64,000 nt of DNA from Streptomyces sp. SCSIO 75703. GTDB lineage: Bacteria > Actinomycetota > Actinomycetes > Streptomycetales > Streptomycetaceae. Of the stretch, positions 1 through 8,718 are shown one piece after another. A program made the position numbers and the translations under genes. Positions within the stretch are counted from its first letter, which is position 1; the number at the start of each line of letters is the position of its first letter. Where the stretch lies: the NCBI RefSeq assembly GCF_036607905.1, contig NZ_CP144555.1, positions 1 through 64,000 on the forward strand, written 5' to 3'. A model generated the notes under the pieces. It was not told where the DNA came from. It did not search any database and saw only the letters and a list, made by a program, of their open reading frames with translations.

Positions 1-36
1 GGCGGTACGCGGGGCGGTACGCGGGGCGGTACGCAG
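1..36. repeat. 12-bp tandem repeat, 3 copies
   Basis: The window opens inside a tandem repeat of GGCGGTACGCGG, two perfect copies and a third with one change. The array may extend upstream of the window. No function is visible. Confidence 0.7.
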
Positions 37-56
37 GAGCCGGGCCGGGACGGTGA

Positions 57-197
57 CCGTGCCCGTACCGGGTGCTGGTGCTGCCGGCCGGGAGGACCCG
101 GCGCCCCGGGGGCGAGCCGGTGCGGGTGGTCGTCCGCCGGTACCTGGGCGGCTTCCGCCGCGCGTTCGGGAACACGCCGGGGACGTACTCCCGTTGA
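57..197 (+). pseudogene. possible 3' remnant of an AraC-family regulator
   Basis: Reading in frame to a TGA at 195-197 gives a C-terminus containing FRRAFGNTPGTYSR, the typical end of an AraC-type second helix-turn-helix (F-x-R-x-F, then TP-x-x-Y/R). The same frame has a stop at 54-56 and the residues just before the motif do not look like the rest of the HTH, so this is either a frameshifted relic or the tail of a gene whose frame was broken in the repeats at 1-36. Called from a short motif only. Confidence 0.3.
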
Positions 198-293
198 TGC
201 GGGGATCGCCGGTGCCGTCCGGACGGTGCCGGTAGGGTCGAGGGCGCCACGGCCGGCCGGGGAGCAACAAAAAAGAGGGGCGGGAGGACAGGC

Positions 294-986
294 GTGTTGG
301 ACAGCGGGAGCGGCACGGACCGGACCGAGGACGTGCGGCGGTGGCTGCGGGGGCTGGAGGTGTTCGCGGGGCCGCTGGCCGACTTCGACCCCGCCCGTGT
401 TCCGGACGACCCCGTCGACCTGTTCCTGCACTGGCTGCGGGAGGCGGTCGCGGCGGGAGTGCCCGACGCGCACGCGATGACCTTGTCGACCGTGGGCGAG
501 GACGGCTGTCCCGACGCACGGGTCCTCCTGCTCAAGAACGTCGACGGCGACGGCTGGCAGTTCGCCGCCCACGCCCACAGCCCCAAGGGCCGCCAGCTCG
601 CCGCACGCCCCCGCGCCGCCCTCACCTTCTACTGGCCCCTCCAGGGACGCCAGGTACGCCTGCGCGGCACCGTGGAGGCCGCCGGGGCCGAGCCGAGCGC
701 CGCCGACCTGCTGGCCCGGTCACCGACGGCGCGGGCCGAGGCGCTGCTGGGCCGCCAGAGCGACCCTCTGACGGATGTACGCGACCGCGAGCGGGCCCTG
801 CGGGAGGCGGTGGCCCGCCTCGATGCGGACCCCGCCCTGATCAGCCCCGCCTGGACGCTCTACACCCTCGCCCCGCTCCAGGCCGAGTTCTGGCAGGCGG
901 ACCGGGGACGCCTGCACGACCGGCTGCGCTACGAACGCCCCGACACCACGAGCGGAAAGTGGCAGCACCACCGGCTGTGGCCGTGA
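294..986 (+). CDS. PNPOx-fold flavoprotein, PdxH (pyridoxamine 5'-phosphate oxidase)-like
   Basis: A 230-residue PdxH-like protein, expected to use FMN to oxidise pyridoxamine or pyridoxine 5'-phosphate to pyridoxal 5'-phosphate in the cytosol. Visible blocks in family order: DPVDLFLHWLREAV (about 39-52), AMTLSTV (61-67), RVLLLK (76-81), SPKGRQLA (96-103), ALTFYW (109-114), RQVRLRG (119-125), EFWQ (about 198), RLHDRLRY (206-213) and the C-terminal RLWP. The length fits PdxH. The usual PPxWGG segment before EFWQ is replaced by ISPAWTLYTLAP, so a paralog acting on another substrate (compare PhzG-type oxidases) is possible. GTG start chosen because GGGAGGA lies 5 bases upstream; a TTG follows directly. 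It stands alone on the plus strand. Confidence 0.8.
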   Translation: MLDSGSGTDRTEDVRRWLRGLEVFAGPLADFDPARVPDDPVDLFLHWLREAVAAGVPDAHAMTLSTVGEDGCPDARVLLLKNVDGDGWQFAAHAHSPKGRQLAARPRAALTFYWPLQGRQVRLRGTVEAAGAEPSAADLLARSPTARAEALLGRQSDPLTDVRDRERALREAVARLDADPALISPAWTLYTLAPLQAEFWQADRGRLHDRLRYERPDTTSGKWQHHRLWP

Positions 987-1031
987 GCGCGCGGCACCCA
1001 CTCCCCCGGCGCGTGGGGGCTGCCCCGGCGG

Positions 1032-1499
1032 TCAGCGCAGGGGGATGTCGCTGCCGTGGTCGGCTTCGGGGCGGGGACCGAGGATCCTGCGGTCGCTCTC
1101 GGCGATCGGGACGTCGTTGATGCTGGCCTCGCGGCGTTCCATCAGCCCGTGCGCGTCGAACTGCCAGAGTTCGTTGCCGTAGCTGCGCCACCACTGGCCG
1201 GCCGCGTCGTGCCACTCGTACTGGAAACGGACCGCGATACGGTTTCCGTCGAAGGACCACAGGCTCTTGCGCAGGGCGTAGTCGAGTTCCCGTTCCCACT
1301 TGGCGGTCAGGAAGCGGACGATCTCCTCACGGCCCGTCACGAACAGGTCCCGGTTACGCCAGACCGAATCGGGTGTGTAGGCGCAGGCCACACGGTGGGG
1401 GTCCCGGGTGTTCCACGCGTCCTCGGCCGCTTGCACCTTGCGGCGTGCGCTCTCTTCGGTGAACGGTGGAAACGGCGGTCGCGGCTCGCTCACGGGCAC
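1032..1499 (-). CDS. DUF1348 / SnoaL-like (NTF2-fold) protein
   Basis: A 155-residue single-domain protein of the DUF1348 family (NTF2-like cone fold). Hallmarks are [18 protein letters not shown] near the N-terminus, [34 protein letters not shown] and the late GNELWQFD with [11 protein letters not shown]. The biochemical role of the family is not established. The gene is divergent from the TetR gene at 1586, and the 86-base space between them holds two similar palindromes, so it is a likely target of that regulator. Start is GTG at 1499 or GTG at 1493; a GGAGGGGGAAG stretch upstream can serve either. Confidence 0.8.
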
Positions 1500-1513
1500 C
1501 CTTCCCCCTCCAG

Positions 1514-1529
1514 GAGAACGGTCGTTCTC
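1514..1529. promoter_or_regulatory. candidate TetR operator, copy 1
   Basis: A perfect 7-bp inverted repeat GAGAACG-GT-CGTTCTC just upstream of the DUF1348 start codon. A second related site lies at 1550-1565. Arm length, spacing and position between a TetR gene and its divergent neighbour are typical of TetR operators; binding is inferred. Confidence 0.6.
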
Positions 1530-1549
1530 GAATGGTGTCGACTACCGTA

Positions 1550-1565
1550 GGCAACGATCGTTCTC
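1550..1565. promoter_or_regulatory. candidate TetR operator, copy 2
   Basis: GGCAACGATCGTTCTC, whose core AACGATCGTT is palindromic and whose right half CGTTCTC is identical to that of the site at 1514-1529. It ends 20 bases before the regulator's start codon, so repressor bound here would block its own gene. Confidence 0.6.
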
Positions 1566-1585
1566 AACGTCAAGGAGACCCCCGC

Positions 1586-2146
1586 GTGCCGGCCCCGATC
1601 AGCGAAGAGCGGATCTCCCGTGACCGTGAAGCACTCCTTCAGGCCGCCGAGGCGCTCTTCTACGAGCGGGGCATCCAGGCGGTCGGCATGGACGCCGTCC
1701 GCGCGGCCTCGGGCGTGCCGCTGAAGCGGATCTACGCGCTCTTCGCGTCGAAGGAGGACCTGGTGGTCGCGGTGCTGCGGCACCGCGACCACCGGTGGCT
1801 GGCGAGCCTCGTGGAGTTCGTGGAACGGCACGAGGACCCCCGCGAACGGGTCCTGGCCCTCTTCGACTGGCTGGAACGGTGGTTCGCGCAGCCCGGTTTC
1901 CGCGGCTGCGCCTGGATCAACGCCTACGGCGAACTGGGTACCGCCTCCCCCGCGGTCCTCGCCGAAGTACGCTCACACAAAAGGGCCTTCCACCACCTGA
2001 TCACCCGCTGGGTCGGCGCCGTCACCGACGCCCCAGCCGGCCCGGTGTGCCTCCTGGCCGAGGGGGCCATCGTCACAGCATCCCTGACAGGAGACACCGA
2101 AGCCGCCCGGACCGGCCGAGCAGCCGCCGAGACACTCATCAACTGA
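1586..2146 (+). CDS. TetR-family transcriptional regulator
   Basis: A 186-residue TetR repressor. The N-terminal DNA-binding domain (about residues 12-60) reads REALLQAAEALFYERGIQAV, then DAVRAASGVPLKRIYALFASKEDLVVAVL, the classic helix-turn-helix followed by the Y-x-x-F-x-S/K-K-E/D signature. The remainder is the helical ligand-binding and dimer domain with RGCAWINAYGEL in the middle. Start is GTG at 1586, preceded by AAGGAG eight bases upstream; longer in-frame reading runs through the operator sites and is unlikely. Divergent from the DUF1348 gene, which it probably controls along with itself. The effector cannot be told. Confidence 0.85.
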   Translation: MPAPISEERISRDREALLQAAEALFYERGIQAVGMDAVRAASGVPLKRIYALFASKEDLVVAVLRHRDHRWLASLVEFVERHEDPRERVLALFDWLERWFAQPGFRGCAWINAYGELGTASPAVLAEVRSHKRAFHHLITRWVGAVTDAPAGPVCLLAEGAIVTASLTGDTEAARTGRAAAETLIN

Positions 2147-2149
2147 CCC

Positions 2150-3110
2150 CCCTCCCCCCACAACCGCACACGACGACGGTGCGCAACTCCCCACACAACA
2201 GCACCCAACAGCACCCGGCGACACCCGGCGACGCCCGGCAGCACCCGGCGACGCTCGGCAGCACCCGGCGGCACCCGGCGGCACCCGGCGACGCTCGGTG
2301 GGCTCGGCGGCGCCCGGCGACGGTGTACAGCGGCGCGCCGCAGCCATGTTCGGCGGGGCCCGGCAACGCCCCGCGGCGCCCGGCGGGGCGCGGCGACGCC
2401 CGGCGGGGCGCGGCGACGCCCGGCGGGCTCGGTGGGCTCGGCGGCGTTCCGTGGGGCCCGGCGGCAGCCGGCGACGCTCGACAGCGGCCGGTGGCGGTGT
2501 ACAGCGGCGCGCCGCAGCGGGGCTCGGCGGGGCCCGGTGGGGCGCGGCGACGCCCGGTGGGGCTCGGTGGGCTCGGCGACGCTCGACAGCGCCCGGCGGC
2601 GTTCGGTGGGGCCCGGCGGCGCCCGGCGGGGCGCGGCGGCACCCGGCGGGGCTCGGTGGGGCTCGGTGGGGCTCGGTGGGGCCCGGCGACGCTCGACAGC
2701 GCCCGGCGACGCTCGGTGGGCTCGGCGGCGTTCCGTGGGGCCCGGCGGCAGCCGGCGACGCTCGACAGCGGCCGGTGGCGGTGTACAGCGGCGCGCAGCA
2801 GCGGGGCGCGGCGGGCGCGGCGACGCCCGGCGGGGCTCGGTAGGGCTCGGTGGCGTTCGACAGCGGCCGGCGACGGTGTGCAGCGGCACGCAGCAGCGAT
2901 GTTCGGCGGGGCTCGGCGACGCTCGACAGCGCCCGGCGGCGTTCGGCGGTGCCCGGAGGGGCGCGGCGACGCCCGGAGGGGCGCGGCGGCACCCGGCGAC
3001 GCTCGACAGCGGCCGGCGGCGGCGCCCGGTGGCGTTCGGTGGGGCTCGGTGGCGCGCAGCAGCGGTGTTCGGCGGCGCCTTGGACCAGGAGACGGGGGCG
3101 GCCGGGGCCC
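2150..3110. repeat. GC-rich degenerate repeat tract with an 82-bp direct repeat
   Basis: Almost entirely built from shuffled short words (GGCGACGCCCGGCG, CTCGGTGGGGCCCGG, GACGCTCGACAGCG, CGGTGTACAGCGGCGCGC). An 82-bp block at 2431-2512 recurs without change at 2715-2796. Stop codons are rare in several frames on both strands, so long ORFs appear in parallel, but all encode arginine/alanine/glycine/proline-rich low-complexity strings with no family resemblance. I see no gene. Expansion by slippage or unequal crossing-over is the simplest origin. From about 3120 it grades into GGTTCCGGTTCCGG-type hexamer repeats. Confidence 0.85.
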
Positions 3111-3218
3111 GCGGCGGTCTTCAGGCCCCGGCCGGTCCCGGTCCCGGTCCCGGCTTCGGCTTCGGAACCGGTTCCGGTTCCGGTTCCGGTTTTGCGGGCG
3201 GGTTTCTTCGCGGTTCGG

Positions 3219-3599
3219 TCAGCAGCCGCTGCCGATACGCAGGGAGGTCATCTTGTCGTTGAAGTGCGAGGCCACGGCCGCTTCGGACTTGCCCGCCGCG
3301 ATGGTGAACATGCAGCCGACGTAGTTGGAGTGCTCGTACACGCTGACCGTTTTGCCGGTACGGTTCCAGTACGAGGTCATGCGGTCGTTCATGTAGTCAC
3401 CGACGTTGGGATTCGACGAGGTGTAGTGCCGGAAGTCACCCCGGTAACTGGACTGCTCCCAGACACAGAAGGACCCGGACGGACACTGCCCGGAGTCAGC
3501 CGCCACCGGATGCGCAGTCATGGTGGCGGTGGCGGCAGTGAACGCCAGAACGGCCGCGGCGGCCCGCAGACGCGTGGAGAAACCCCTGAATCGGACCAT
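3219..3599 (-). CDS. secreted peptidase inhibitor family I36 (beta/gamma-crystallin-like)
   Basis: A 126-residue exported protein. A Sec signal peptide fills residues 1-33 (MVRFRGFSTRLR charged start, AAAAVLAF hydrophobic core, cleavage after HPVAA). The mature part has two crystallin-like halves, CPSGSFCVWEQSSYRGDFRHY and VSVYEHSNYVGCMFTI, with four cysteines suited to disulfides. This is the pattern of the Streptomyces metalloproteinase inhibitor SMPI family (I36). Start is ATG at 3599, seven bases after CGGAG; in-frame codons further upstream would place charged sequence ahead of the signal peptide. It lies alone between a repeat tract and the insertion-sequence array. Confidence 0.75.
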   Translation of the reverse strand: MVRFRGFSTRLRAAAAVLAFTAATATMTAHPVAADSGQCPSGSFCVWEQSSYRGDFRHYTSSNPNVGDYMNDRMTSYWNRTGKTVSVYEHSNYVGCMFTIAAGKSEAAVASHFNDKMTSLRIGSGC

Positions 3600-3810
3600 G
3601 CTTTTCTCCGTTTCGTTTTCCGTGGTCGACCACATGAAGCCAACCGGGAGCAGCGTAGGAATACCGCCGGCCGACCGGCAATACGCCCTCGGAACGACCC
3701 ATTCGACGCACAAAGGTTTCCCCCCTTGATTTCCGGGGCCCCTTCACATTCCCGGAAAGCAGAGGCAGTCAACACGAACAGGTGACACCCCAGCGCCCGA
3801 CGGCGCCCCC

Positions 3811-3909
3811 CAGTACCTCCCAGTACCTGGCGAGGCCTCACGGTGCCTCCCGGTGCCTGGCGAGGCCTGGCGGTGCCTCCCGGTGCCTGGCGAGGCCCGG
3901 CGGTGCCTA
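3811..3909. repeat. 30-bp tandem repeat, three copies plus 9 bp
   Basis: Units start at 3811, 3841 and 3871 with a partial fourth at 3901. Each is itself built from two halves (CGGTGCCTCC and CGGTGCCTGG) followed by CGAGGCCTGG. The partial fourth copy is interrupted exactly where the left end of the IS5-type element begins, so that element inserted into the minisatellite or at its edge. Confidence 0.85.
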
Positions 3910-3977
3910 GGAACTGTCCGGCCGATCATGAGACTTGCTAATCTCCCAGTCGCCTGGAAGGGGTTGCTGCAGTGGTG

Positions 3978-4193
3978 ATGGCTCGTGAGGCTGCCGTGGC
4001 AATGGTGCAGAAGATCATGGACGCGGACTACGCCGACGATGCCGAGGCCGCCGACGCGCTGGAGGCGTTGGGCAGGCTCCTCGGCTGTCCAAGTGGCCGT
4101 ATCGGCGACTTGATCTTCTGGCCGAGTGGGCCGGAGCCCACAGCCGCTGAAGTGGTCGAACAGGCTCTGGAGCACCGGCCTTTCATGCTGTGA
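3978..4193 (+). CDS. small Im9/colicin-immunity-like ('e9imm') protein, IS passenger
   Basis: A 71-residue acidic protein resembling the Colicin_Pyocin (E9 immunity, Im9-like) family: EAAVAMVQKIMDADYADDAEAADALEALGRLLGCPSG, then IGDLIFWPSGPEPTAAEVVEQAL, the spacing of a four-helix Im protein with its acidic binding helix. Immunity proteins of this fold bind and block colicin-type DNases; that role here is inferred. An alternative GTG start lies at 3972, with AAGGGG upstream. It sits inside the inverted repeats of the IS5-type element, convergent to and 5 bases from the transposase stop. No toxin gene is nearby. Confidence 0.6.
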   Translation: MAREAAVAMVQKIMDADYADDAEAADALEALGRLLGCPSGRIGDLIFWPSGPEPTAAEVVEQALEHRPFML

Positions 4194-4198
4194 CGGCA

Positions 4199-5139
4199 TC
4201 AAACCCGTAGCCAGATGATCACCGCTGCCACGGTGACCGTGCCGAGGAAGACATAGCCGCGCTTGTCATACCGGGTCGCGACGGCACGGGAAATCTTCAG
4301 CCTGTTGATGGCCCGCTCGACGGTGTTGCGCTTCTTGTACCGCTCTTCGTCGAAGCCTGGGGCAGTCCGCCTCGTGATCCTTTGCGAGGCGGGCGGCCCG
4401 GCTGTCGGTCTTCTCCGGGATGGCGTGCCGGACGCCGCACCGCCGCAGGTACTCACGACAGGGACTGTTGCTGTAGGCCTTGTCGGCCGCGACGCTGTCG
4501 GGTTTCTTGCGGGGCCTGCCCGGTCCGAGCCGCGGGACCCGGATCTTCCCCAGCACCGGGATGAACTGTGTGCAGTCGGCCCGCTGCCCCGGCGTGACGA
4601 TCAGGGAAAACGGACGGCAGCGGCTGTCCGCGCTCAGATGGGCCTTGCCGGTGAAACCGCCGCGCGAACGACCCAGGCCTTCGCCTCCCGCGCCACCTCC
4701 GCCAGCCGGCCGACAGGCTCTGCCACGGAATTTCGTCCTGATGTTCCAGCCCCTCGCCCCCCTTTGAGGCGGCGAGGGCCGGCGGCGGGTCGGTGCGGGC
4801 ACCAGCCGCATGCTGATGCGCTCGGACGATGGTGGAGTCCACCGAGATGTCCCAGTCGATCTCCCCTGCCGCGTCGACCGCGGCTTGAACCTGCTGCAGC
4901 AGCCGTTCCCAGGTTCCGTCAGCGGACCAGAGCCGATGGCGCTCGTAGACCGTCTTCCACGGACCGAACCACTCCGGCAAATCACGCCAGTGCACCCCGG
5001 TCCGTACCCGGTACAGAATCCCGTTGATCACCTGCCGGTGATCACGCCACCGCCCACACCGCCCGTTGCTCACCGGCAGGAACGGCCGCAGCCGCTCCCA
5101 CTCGGCATCCGAAAGACCGCCTCGCTCACCCTGCCCCAC
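4199..5139 (-). pseudogene. IS5-family transposase, two frame breaks
   Basis: The N-terminal part (GTG at 5139) is a clear IS5/DUF4096-type start: LSDAEWERLRPFLP, GILYRVRTGVHWRDLP, then WDISVDSTIVRAHQHAAGAR, which carries the first catalytic Asp. After an A3G6 run at 4757-4765 the homology continues in a second frame (LGRSRGGFTGKAHLSAD, ADKAYSNSPC with the second Asp, IPEKTDSRAARL). Near 4350-4388 it moves to a third frame (PGFDEERYKKRNTVERAINRLK with the catalytic Glu, ending VAAVIIWLRV). The second break matches a net loss of two bases relative to family members and looks like decay; the first could be decay or programmed slippage. Confidence 0.75.
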
Positions 5140-5195
5140 ACACAGGGCAACGATCCGATCAGGCGACCGTCACATGATCGGCCGGACAGCTCCTA

Positions 5196-6318
5196 GTGAC
5201 CTGAGTCGGAGATTCGTCGTTGGTTCGGTATGAGTCGTCCGGGTCCGAAGATTCCGCCGCTGTCGGTGACTGATGCCCAACGAGCCGCGCTGGAGGGCTG
5301 GGTCCGTCGTCGCACGACGGCCCAGGCTCTGGCCTTGCGGTCGCGGATCGTGCTGGAGTGCGCCGAGGGGTACTCGATCATGGAGGTGTCCCGCCGGCTG
5401 AGGGTCAGTCCGGACACGGTCCGCACCTGGCGGCGCCGCTTCCTCGAACGAGGCCTGGACGGCCTGTGTGACGACCCGCGTCCGGGCGTCCCGCGCAAGA
5501 TCACTGACGCGGACGCCGAGCGGGTCATCGTCAAGACGCTTGAGGAGAAGCCGAAGAACGCCACCCATTGGTCGACCAGATCGATGGCGGCCGCCACCGG
5601 GATGTCGCAGTCGACGATCTCGCGGATCTGGCGGGCGTTCGCCCTGGCCCCGCACCGCTCACAGACCTTCAAGCTGTCCACCGACCCGCTGTTCGTCGAC
5701 AAGGTCCGCGACGTCGTCGGCCTCTACCTCGACCCGCCGGAGAAGGCCCTGGTCCTCTGCGTGGACGAGAAGTCCCAGATCCAGGCCCTGGACCGCTCCC
5801 AGCCCGTCCTGCCGATGATGCCCGGCGTCCCTGAACGCCGCAGCCACGACTACGTCCGAGCGGGCACGACCACCCTGTTCGCCGCCTTGGAAGTGGCGAC
5901 CGGAAAAGTCATCGGCTCGCTCCACCGCCGCCACCGGTCCGTCGAGTTCAAGAAGTTCCTCACCAAACTCGACAAGGAAGTCCCCGCCGGCCTTCAGGTC
6001 CACCTGATCCTCGACAACTACGCGACGCACAAGACGCCCGAGATCAAGAAGTGGCTGCTGGCCCACCCGCGCTTCCACCTGCACTTCACACCTACCAGCG
6101 CGTCGTGGCTGAACCTGGTCGAGCGGTGGTTCGCCGAACTCACACAGAAGAAGCTCAAGCGCGGAGTACACCGCTCCGTCCAGGCTCTCGAACGCGACAT
6201 CCGGGCCTGGCTGGCCGACTGGAACGACCAACCCAGGCCCTTCATCTGGACCAAAACGGCCGACGAAATCCTCGACAAAGTCGCCGCCTACTGCCACCGA
6301 ATCTCTGACTCAGGTCAC
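5196..6318. mobile_element. IS630-family insertion sequence
   Basis: Ends match as GTGACCTGAGTCGGAGATTC at 5196 and GTGACCTGAGTCAGAGATTC read inward from 6318, one mismatch in 21 bases. It is flanked by TA on both sides (5194-5195 and 6319-6320), the target duplication known for IS630. It abuts the IS5-type element with no extra base: the left TA is the same TA that flanks that element. The encoded transposase is full length, so this copy may be active. Confidence 0.85.
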
Positions 6319-6321
6319 TAG
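5230..6321 (+). CDS. IS630-family transposase, intact
   Basis: A 363-residue DDE transposase. The N-terminal winged/homeo-like HTH region holds LRSRIVLECAEGYSIMEVSRRLRVSPDTVRTWRRRF (about 36-71). The catalytic core has LCVDEKSQ (first Asp, about 177), LILDNYATHKTP (second Asp, about 262) and TSASWLNLVERWFAELTQKKLKRG with the third acidic residue. The stop codon TAG at 6319-6321 is not element DNA: its TA is the duplicated target and its G is the neighbouring base, so the reading frame is closed by the insertion site. It ends convergently on the IS481 transposase within one CTAG. Confidence 0.9.
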   Translation: MSRPGPKIPPLSVTDAQRAALEGWVRRRTTAQALALRSRIVLECAEGYSIMEVSRRLRVSPDTVRTWRRRFLERGLDGLCDDPRPGVPRKITDADAERVIVKTLEEKPKNATHWSTRSMAAATGMSQSTISRIWRAFALAPHRSQTFKLSTDPLFVDKVRDVVGLYLDPPEKALVLCVDEKSQIQALDRSQPVLPMMPGVPERRSHDYVRAGTTTLFAALEVATGKVIGSLHRRHRSVEFKKFLTKLDKEVPAGLQVHLILDNYATHKTPEIKKWLLAHPRFHLHFTPTSASWLNLVERWFAELTQKKLKRGVHRSVQALERDIRAWLADWNDQPRPFIWTKTADEILDKVAAYCHRISDSGH

Positions 6322-7274
6322 GTGTATTGACCCGCAGCGTTGTTGACACGGCTGATGGGCGGGTGTCCGTCCAGTGCGGTGTGGCAGCGGTGGTGGTTGT
6401 AGGTGTGGAGGAAGTCTGCCAGGGCTTCGGTCCGTTCGGTGTTTGAGGTGTAGGGCCGCAGGTAGGCCCATTCGTCGAGCAGGGTGCGGTTGAAGCGTTC
6501 GACCTTGCCGTTGGTCTGCGGCCGGTAGGCCCGGGTCAGCTTGCCGGTCGCGCCGAGCTCGGCCAGGACTGCCTTCCAGGCCAGGCCCTTGCGGTAGGCC
6601 CAGGCGTTGTCGGTCAGCACCCGCTCGATCCGGGTGATGCCCTGGCTGTGGAAGAACGTGGCCGCGCGGGTGAGGAAGCCCGCGCAGGTCGCGGTCTTCT
6701 CGTCGCCGTGGATCTCGCTGTAGGCGAGGCGGGTGTGGTCGTCGACGGCGGAGTGGACGTAGTCGAAGCCCATGTTGTTGCGGGTGGCCCGGCCGGCCTG
6801 GCGGCCCAGCGCTTTGTGACCGCCGCCGTCGGGGATCCGGCCGAGTTTCTTCACGTCGACGTGGATGAGTTCCCCGGGACGCTCGCGTTCGTAGCGGCGG
6901 ATCAGCGTGCCGGTGGGGCGGTCGAGCCAGGCCAGGCGGTTGAGCCGGTGGCGGGTCAGGATCCGGTGGACGGTCGAGGCGGGCAGGCCCAGGATCGGGC
7001 CGATCCTGGCCGGCCCGAGCTTGCGGCTCTGTCGCAGGTCGCAGACGCGGGTTTCGACCGAGGCCGCGGTCCGGTGCGGCGTCGTGTGAGGCCGGCTCGA
7101 CCGGTCGTGCAGGCCCGCCTCGCCTTCAGCCCGCCACCTGCGGATCCATTTGTGAGCCGTGGCCCGGGAGATACCCATCTCGGCGGCCACGTGAGCGACC
7201 GGACGGCCTGAGCAGACACGTTCGACCAGCAGTCTTCTACCGAAGACGGTCAGCCGGGCATTACGGTGGGGCAC
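6318..7274 (-). CDS. IS481-family transposase
   Basis: A 318-residue transposase with an N-terminal HTH (PHRNARLTVFGRRLLVERVCSG, then VAHVAAEMGISRATAHKWIRRWRAEG, about 1-55) and an rve integrase core: ELIHVDVKKLGRIPDGG (first Asp), RVLTDNAWAYRKG (second Asp) and TNGKVERFNRTLLDEW (Glu). Start is GTG at 7274, the usual PHRNA start of the family, preceded by GGAGGT at four bases; the frame stays open upstream to 7358 but only through the element's end. Its stop TAG (6318-6320, complement) lies in the CTAG shared with IS630, so again the target site supplies the stop. Confidence 0.88.
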   Translation of the reverse strand: MPHRNARLTVFGRRLLVERVCSGRPVAHVAAEMGISRATAHKWIRRWRAEGEAGLHDRSSRPHTTPHRTAASVETRVCDLRQSRKLGPARIGPILGLPASTVHRILTRHRLNRLAWLDRPTGTLIRRYERERPGELIHVDVKKLGRIPDGGGHKALGRQAGRATRNNMGFDYVHSAVDDHTRLAYSEIHGDEKTATCAGFLTRAATFFHSQGITRIERVLTDNAWAYRKGLAWKAVLAELGATGKLTRAYRPQTNGKVERFNRTLLDEWAYLRPYTSNTERTEALADFLHTYNHHRCHTALDGHPPISRVNNAAGQYT

Positions 7275-7377
7275 GAAGACCTCCGTGCGGTGAGTTCCTA
7301 GACAGCTCCCACCACACCGGAGGTCTTCGCCATGTTCAAGATCCAGCAGTGTCAACAACGCTCGTGATCAATACACC
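6321..7377. mobile_element. IS481-family insertion sequence
   Basis: Ends read GGTGTATTGA at 6321 and, inward from 7377, the same ten bases, followed after a 5-base divergent stretch by AGCGTTGTTGACAC on both sides. A CTAG lies at each junction (6318-6321 and 7377-7380), in line with the CTAG preference documented for Bordetella IS481. The element abuts IS630 and carries an intact minus-strand transposase. Confidence 0.8.
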
Positions 7378-7380
7378 TAG

Positions 7381-7706
7381 CGGGGCCAGTCGTCGCCCCG
7401 GAGCCGGACCCGCACCGGGTACGAGACCGGTGCGGACGAATCCCCGGCCCGAGCCCAGACGCGGAGCCGGGTGTGGACGGGCCCCCGGTCCAGGCAGCGG
7501 GTCCAGGCGCGCGGGCGCTGCGAGTGCGGGTCTGGGCGCGGGACCGGATACGGGGTCTGGGCCGGGTGCGGGTGCGGGGTCGGGGGTGGCCGGTGGCTTC
7601 GCGCGCACCGCCATGCGGAGTACACCGGCCGGGTCTTCGGAGTGTTCTTCGCCGGGCGGGCGGCGCCGTGACGCCGTCGGGGCGAGGCGCGGGGTTTTCT
7701 CGGCTC
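7381..7706. other. intergenic, no gene seen
   Basis: Very GC-rich sequence dominated by GGGTCNGGG/CCCGGNCC words between the IS481 right end and the DUF981 gene. Open frames exist on both strands but give only low-complexity arginine/proline/glycine strings. No promoter or hairpin stands out. Confidence 0.6.
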
Positions 7707-8426
7707 ATGAACGAGCTGATGCTGGCGGCCCAAGACGGTCTGAAGATCGACTGGACCCGGATGCCGACCTACAACACCATCATGTCCGTCGCCGCCGGAG
7801 CCGGGCTGCTGCTGGTCGTGGCCCTCGGATACCGGCTGCTGAACGGCCACGGCATCGTCTCCGAGAGCTGGGCACTCGCCTTCGGCGTGCTCGGGATCAT
7901 CCTCTTCGCCACCGGCCTGCACATGACCCTCACCTGGCCCCTGGCCGGCCAGGGCTTCCCCTTCGACAACATCATCTTCGGCGAGCCCTCCCTCGCCTTC
8001 GGCACCCTGCTGCTGGCCGCGGCGTTCTACCTCTGGAAACGGGGCCGGCAATGGGAGGAAACACCCGACCGGCCCCGGACCACCGCCATGCTCAGCGGCC
8101 CCGTCTCCCTGTTCGTCTTCGCCATGGGCCTGGCCTGCCTCGCCATCGCCGCAGCCGGCTGGAAGTACACCCTCTTCGCCGCCCCGCCCGAGGAACCCAT
8201 CTCCGGGGAATTCGCCGACCACCCCCAGCTCGAAGCCAGCTTCATCTCGGGCCTCTACGTACTGGTCGGCCTCGGCGCACTCTTCTACCCCGCCCTGCTC
8301 CGACGCCGTAGCAACACCACCGCCTGGATCGTAGGCACCTGCTGGACCCTCAGCGGACTGGCATTCCTCGCCTTCGGCGCACTCAACTACTTCACCCACA
8401 TCGGACTCATCATCAACACCATGTGA
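7707..8426 (+). CDS. DUF981 family multi-pass membrane protein
   Basis: A 239-residue integral membrane protein of the DUF981 type. After a short soluble start (MNELMLAAQDGLKIDWTRMPTYN) come hydrophobic segments around residues 24-43, 53-73, 88-108, 132-152, 178-198 and 208-231, giving about six spans. Typical features are GLHMTLTWPL and FDNIIFGEPSLAFGTLLL. The function of the family is unknown. ATG at 7707 is the natural start, though its ribosome site is weak (CGCGGGG). It is the first gene past the IS array and no partner gene is visible. Confidence 0.7.
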   Translation: MNELMLAAQDGLKIDWTRMPTYNTIMSVAAGAGLLLVVALGYRLLNGHGIVSESWALAFGVLGIILFATGLHMTLTWPLAGQGFPFDNIIFGEPSLAFGTLLLAAAFYLWKRGRQWEETPDRPRTTAMLSGPVSLFVFAMGLACLAIAAAGWKYTLFAAPPEEPISGEFADHPQLEASFISGLYVLVGLGALFYPALLRRRSNTTAWIVGTCWTLSGLAFLAFGALNYFTHIGLIINTM

Positions 8427-8473
8427 AACCCCGGAGGAAAACACAAAACAGACCACAACTCCACAGGCCAGCC

Positions 8474-8718
8474 CAGCCAGTCGGGTCAGCGGGCCACCCG
8501 GCCACCCGGTCGAGCCAGCCAGTCGGGTCAGCGGGCCACCCGGCCACCCGGTCGAGCCAGCCGGTCGGGTAAGCGGGTCAGCCGGTCAGCCGGTCAGCCG
8601 GTCAGCCGGTCAGCCGGTCAGCCGGTCAGCCGGTCAGCCGGTCAGCCGGTCAGCCGGTCAGCCGGTCAGCGGAGGGTAGTCGGTCAGCCGAGGGTAGTCG
8701 GTCAGCCGAGGGTAGTCG
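8474..8718. repeat. compound minisatellite: 42-bp x2, 8-bp x12, 18-bp x3
   Basis: Three tandem families lie end to end. A 42-bp unit repeats at 8474 and 8516; GGTCAGCC repeats with period 8 from 8576 to 8671 (twelve units, the last with one change); GAGGGTAGTCGGTCAGCC repeats with period 18 from 8672. The 8-bp word GGTCAGCC lies inside the 18-bp unit and related words occur in the 42-bp unit, so the three arrays look derived from one another. The array starts about 50 bp after the DUF981 stop codon. Confidence 0.9.

Follow-up and report, generated by a model that had tools for sequence, protein, structure and literature searches.

Two transposase genes of different IS families converge tail to tail on a single CTAG in the 64-kb stretch of Streptomyces DNA analyzed here (the window), raising the question of whether their stop codons belong to the elements or to the target DNA. 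A sequence-only reading of this stretch had favored the target. At 6318-6321 the sequence CTAG reads TAG on each strand, and the open reading frames and the bases agree that the IS630 transposase gene (plus strand) stops at TAG 6319-6321 and the IS481 transposase gene (minus strand) at TAG 6320-6318. As that reading held, both stops lie within one palindromic CTAG, which is outside either element, and neither frame has a stop of its own. The features of the locus are as follows.

3907-3910: CTAG, left border of the IS5-type element
3911-5192, minus strand: IS5-type (DUF4096 / DDE_Tnp_1_2) element, its transposase split into two frames (4453-5139 and 4199-4456)
5193-5196: CTAG common to the IS5-type element and IS630
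5197-6317, plus strand: IS630 element, 1121 bp, terminal repeats TGACCTGAGTCGGAGATTCG / CGAATCTCTGACTCAGGTCA (TGACC..GGTCA)
5230-6321, plus strand: IS630 transposase gene, 363 aa, its final three bases (TAG) in the target CTAG, beyond the element
6318-6321, both strands: CTAG, target duplication giving the stop codon of both transposases
6318-7358, minus strand: IS481 transposase gene, 346 aa, with TAG and the final two bases of codon ACC outside the element
6323-7375, minus strand: IS481 element, 1053 bp, ends TGTATTGATCAC / CGGGTCAATACA (transposase orientation)
7377-7380: CTAG, outer border of IS481, within NCTAGN at 7376-7381

The IS630 transposase matches NCBIfam NF033545 (275.6 bits; cut-off 100) and Pfam DDE_3 and ends in ...ISDSGH, while the IS481 transposase matches NCBIfam NF033577 (335.4 bits; cut-off 224) and LZ_Tnp_IS481 and ends in ...AAGQYT. 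The terminal inverted repeats of the IS630 element agree at 19 of 22 bases, and the element is bordered by CTAG on either side (5193-5196 and 6318-6321). The IS481 element has the TG..CA ends of its family. The description of the shared CTAG as a duplicated target stands for the borders of both elements; the IS481 duplication, however, is 6 bp (NCTAGN) and not CTAG alone. At the window IS481 site, which is common to IS630, the two hexamers match incompletely (GCTAGG versus CCTAGT). By eye, the hexamers still differ (GCTAGG versus CCTAGG, in transposase orientation) when the IS630 insert is ignored and the 6322 side is set against 7376-7381; a point change or an exchange by recombination among copies would account for this remaining difference. 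Because this 6-bp duplication is imperfect, the order of insertion at the locus is not fixed. For IS630, the palindromic nature of CTAG makes 2-bp and 4-bp duplications indistinguishable; a 4-bp duplication fits copies L003 (CTAC/CTAC) and L134 (GTAG/GTAG), and a TA-only duplication or later mutation fits L093 (CTAG/CTAA) and L122 (TTAG/CTAG). Under either length, the G of the IS630 TAG is host DNA.

CTAG is scarce in the window: shuffles of the 64 kb predict 64.5 ± 6.8 occurrences, and there are 7. Of these, four mark IS borders (3907, 5193, 6318, and 7377), and another (7298) is internal to IS481. This scarcity, the concentration at IS borders and the recurrence of the same arrangement in relatives (below) argue that the stop geometry is not a product of chance. 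A stop codon is present in just two of the 16 palindromic tetramers, CTAG and TTAA, and CTAG, being palindromic, therefore provides one in either insertion orientation.

IS630 and IS481 are part of a longer chain, which runs CTAG 3907, IS5-type element, CTAG 5193, IS630, CTAG 6318, IS481, CTAG 7377. The IS5-type element has inverted ends GAACTGTCCGGCCG / GAGCTGTCCGGCCG, and its transposase frame closes within the element, at a TGA (4199-4201) that the target does not supply. Beyond the split transposase, this element also holds a 73-aa open reading frame (3972-4193), a possible passenger gene. Elsewhere in the neighborhood, an 8-mer, GGTCAGCC, forms a tandem array at 8568-8671, and short, degenerate repeats of the CCCGGCGACGCTCGG type, seen by eye, extend over almost 1 kb at about 2160-3060. 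Positions 1-8434 of the window recur base for base, in inverted orientation, in the right arm of the assembly, where window base 1 corresponds to 6808706 of 6885934. From the assembled sequence, this resembles a terminal inverted repeat with about 77 kb missing from its left copy. As a consequence of this repeat, the three-IS cluster occurs twice in the assembly.

To learn whether the stops are a property of the site or of the elements, the sequence-only reading had proposed comparing the C-termini of other genomic copies. The comparison bore out its expectation: copies at CTAG stop at the border, and both copies at CTAC (L003 and L017) read through. Three near-identical IS630 copies are present in the genome, none with its own stop. 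The intact ones are of two kinds, the window copy with its mirror, which lie at CTAG, and L003, which lies between CTAC and CTAC, shares 1103 of 1121 bases with the window copy and has a frame that is 35 residues longer. A broken IS630 copy (L004/L005) ends at TAG.

The IS481 copies provide the cleanest comparison. There are 11 full, near-identical copies, including the mirror of the window copy, and thus 10 independent sites; none of the 11 has its own stop. When these ten sites were scored without a bonus for TA at the border, the 6-bp duplication was perfect at nine, reading NCTAGN at eight sites and TCTACC at the remaining one. Wherever the site is CTAG, as it is at nine of the ten, the copy ends with the border TAG. 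By contrast, the frame of the copy at TCTACC (L017) comprises 440 rather than 346 residues, as it runs on for a further 94 to a TGA. Since the L017 element is identical to the window IS481 (1053/1053 bp), the site alone makes the difference in length. The 95-residue L017 stretch that begins at the variable last codon matches UvrA positions 854-941 of 943 (113.4 bits); as a fragment, this match falls under the whole-protein cut-off. By eye, the left flank of L017 continues the UvrA-like gene, indicating that the element inserted in frame in that gene. The last residue of the IS481 copies varies between T, S, I and N, since host DNA makes up two-thirds of the codon that precedes the stop. The five IS481 copies compared with the window copy were all identical to it over 1053/1053 bp, an identity that suggests recent activity.

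A short repeat that starts with CTAGGGYCTTTCGTTGGGATC occurs at 47 places in the genome at up to 2 mismatches (control, 0), for example at G000:C1:2031899 (L374). Three of the ten independent IS481 sites (L012, L013, and L018) lie exactly at the CTAG of this repeat and a fourth, L019, resembles the repeat start; the repeat may be a landing hot spot for IS481.

The same question was put to relatives of both elements. Each of the two transposases was searched in 246 genus-level genomes, with E values up to 1e-120 and 8 candidates scored per genome, and in 396 phylum-level genomes, with E values up to 1e-60 and 5 candidates scored per genome. To these we added further loci, among them the best 80 of 300 from one search and 12 of 570 plasmid records, the fetched matches being part of those listed. 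Once duplicates were removed, a C-terminus and candidate ends were available for 147 IS630 and 184 IS481 copies, and the ends were confident for 135 and 164, respectively; the 12 and 20 copies with unsure ends were left out. Also set aside, for IS630 and IS481 respectively, were copies that were partial (13 and 6), lacked a C-terminus (12 and 8), duplicated another (9 and 24) or had no ends (5 and 3). Of the copies whose ends were confident, 102 of 135 IS630 (101 TAG, 1 TAA) and 153 of 164 IS481 (149 TAG, 4 TAA) have their stop within the target duplication. CTAA targets give TAA (L062, L187, and L277). This arrangement persists down to 45% protein identity for IS630 and 40% for IS481. The target-supplied stop is thus real and widespread in relatives of both elements.

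An own stop inside the element was called by machine in 29 IS630 and 7 IS481 copies. By eye, four of the IS630 calls are doubtful, three of them (L056, L161, and L398) because nonsense or frame changes interrupt what otherwise looks target-ended and one (L404) because its ends are misplaced; one IS481 call (L248) has doubtful ends. Own stops inside the terminal repeat had been named beforehand as the finding that would speak against target-supplied stops: they are absent from the closest copies and present in other lineages. These comprise a 1.41-kb sister clade of IS630 and several distant IS481 and IS630 elements, and include one genome in which a TGA lies inside the terminal repeat (L055 and L097). 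The 16 copies of the 1.41-kb clade have their own stop 27-35 bases inside, with 15 of the 16 at CTAG and one at GTAG. In the 12 plasmid records, eight copies end in the duplication by machine call and L404 does so by eye, L396 (ISRj1) and L402 have their own stop, and L398 is broken.

Readthrough was called by machine in four IS630 and four IS481 copies, the real off-target cases being L003 and L017 only. In L042 the frame is lost, in L373 the duplication is altered (CTTAGC/CCCAGC), in L316 no duplication is clear, and the ends of L214, L226, and L192 were misplaced. Very long IS481 frames in genome G516 are not extensions either, as all five stop in the duplication and owe their length to upstream sequence. 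The prediction that insertion elsewhere would extend the C-terminus is correct for CTAC, where 35 and 94 residues are gained, but such events are rare, as the targets are nearly always CTAG or CTAA. From the reading frames, the extended transposases would be made as proteins.

Because CTAG serves both as target and as stop, it might be chosen for the stop. Perfect duplications are CTAG in 126 of 128 IS630 copies (with one CTAC and one GTAG) and in 136 of 142 IS481 copies (with 3 of 142 at CTAA, also a stop); the end-finder gave a bonus for TA at the border and for a matching duplication, so these CTAG shares lean upward. In this tally, which is limited to perfect duplications with TA at the border and in which the shares lean upward in both stop classes, CTAG is the target of 99 of 100 IS630 and 132 of 137 IS481 copies without their own stop, and of 27 of 28 IS630 and 4 of 5 IS481 copies with a machine-called own stop. 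The preference for CTAG showed no difference between copies with and without their own stop (31/33 versus 231/237, Fisher p = 0.25). Selection for targets that provide a stop was therefore dropped as the explanation of target choice; as own-stop lineages mostly still use CTAG, target choice is independent of the need for a stop.

Quick trees, computed without the C-terminal columns, indicate that the source of the stop has changed repeatedly. IS630, with 139 rows thinned by identity to 64, shows at least seven changes, five of them forced by starred branches, and IS481, with 62 rows of 162, at least three, two of them so forced; the trees are unrooted with long deep branches, such that only the numbers of changes are claimed, and odd IS630 rows had their label set by hand or were omitted.

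Taken together, these data make it almost certain that both transposases are encoded by target-terminated genes, whereby the frame runs off the end of the element and the host CTAG supplies the stop. Each reading frame crosses the terminal repeat and leaves the element without a stop, the transposase inserts almost only at CTAG and duplicates it, and the adjoining host bases complete the gene, which ends CA|C TAG in the case of IS630 and A|NC TAG in that of IS481. Because insertion duplicates CTAG, a new CTAG-targeting element that enters the stop codon of a resident would leave that stop intact, and repeated duplication of CTAG could build a chain of IS5-type, IS630 and IS481 elements. The chain in the window probably formed in this way, by successive insertions.

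Shared borders of this kind recur in the genomes surveyed. The end of a second IS630 or IS481 element lies exactly past the shared CTAG at 13 of 579 flanks (10 of 260 IS630 and 3 of 319 IS481 flanks) compared to 16 of 18528 control positions, where one chain can be counted from both sides. Tandem IS630 copies with one common CTAG were found in genomes G158 and G165. Ends like those of the IS5-type element (GGGTGTCC and similar) start immediately beyond the CTAG (or CTAA, TTAG) of the border at 9 of 259 IS630 flanks, eight on the transposase 3' side (L032, L049, L055, L088, L093, L096, L116, and L149) and one (L001) on the opposite, 5' side (p = 0.04, an unplanned test).

Other explanations were weighed against target termination. 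The frames could simply run off the elements to the first outside stop, with no link to target choice, and own-stop elements of both families do also use CTAG, so that the link is not needed for an element to survive. Yet 255 of the 299 confident copies stop exactly at the target TAR codon, with protein identities to those of the window as low as 40-45% and including copies on Pseudomonadota plasmids, making a chance stop very improbable. This evidence concerns the position of the stop. An error of assembly that mis-joined an IS cluster is more improbable still: the three-element cluster does appear twice, inverted and near both contig ends, but a terminal inverted repeat predicts just this base identity between 1-8434 and the right arm, and nine other IS481 sites each have a matching duplication.

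More can be said for a version in which target termination is itself under selection, whereby off-CTAG copies would carry an extended, weaker transposase and this feedback would keep the lineage CTAG-specific. Off-CTAG stopless copies are indeed few (1 of 100 IS630 and 1 of 137 IS481 with a perfect duplication and no own stop). However, the equal CTAG specificity of own-stop copies noted above speaks against it. Given the symmetry of the palindrome, CTAC and GTAG should be equally frequent if readthrough were harmless; copies without their own stop include two at CTAC and none at GTAG, which is contrary to purging, although the numbers are tiny. In a structure model of the IS481 transposase (mean pLDDT 73.4, 25 sequences), the last seven residues (340-346) fall below pLDDT 50, and an extension may thus be tolerated. 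We consider such selection unlikely. A related idea, to which we give slightly less credence, is that target termination acts as a quality check, in which a correct landing at CTAG would yield a short, fully active transposase and a misplaced one a host-fused protein. If so, translation would report the accuracy of insertion and would help to hold unrelated IS families on one stackable landing site where they are mutually harmless.

That a target can make the stop is already known for both families from the sources cited here. The title of Fournier, Paulus and Otten (1993, J Bacteriol 175:3151) states that the ORF1 stop codon of IS870 can form only with CTAG as the target. A copy of IS870 on an Agrobacterium fabrum plasmid, annotated as IS630-like, ends CCA|C TAG between CTAG and CTAG. 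Like the window IS630, to which it has 44.6% protein identity, it has no own stop and takes its TAG from CTAG; unlike it, it resides on an alphaproteobacterial plasmid. A preference of IS630 for the TA in CTAG is stated in the title of Tenzen and Ohtsubo (1991). In the IS481 family, passages of PMC2516522 describe a target-made transposase stop for ISLxc2 / ISLxx4 of Leifsonia xyli, which differ from the window IS481 in species and sequence, and those passages contain no off-target extended copies. ISRe46 / TnRErm46 of Rhodococcus equi targets CTAG, and the TAG of its right NCTAGN is the UAG stop of the transposase, while at the left end CTAG makes a stop for some target genes (passages of PMC6794481); unlike the window IS481, TnRErm46 is a 6.9-kb transposon with cargo genes and not a simple IS. 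The Bordetella pertussis IS481 shares with the window element its 6-bp NCTAGN target, with CCTAAC also used; the passage of PMC3053399 that describes this does not say where the stop lies.

No description of a target-made stop in a Streptomyces IS630 element was found in the paper listings and selected passages searched, which lay mostly outside subscription journals. As far as these searches reach, what is new is that one CTAG serves as the stop of two convergent transposases from different families, that base-identical copies occur with and without readthrough, and that a count separates target choice from the source of the stop. For annotation, an IS boundary placed at the stop codon will err by the duplicated bases. 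The genome also holds a natural experiment, in which one IS481 sequence has a normal transposase frame at CTAG and a UvrA-tailed frame at CTAC. Stop source and target choice evolve separately in IS630 and IS481, and CTAG remains the main target.
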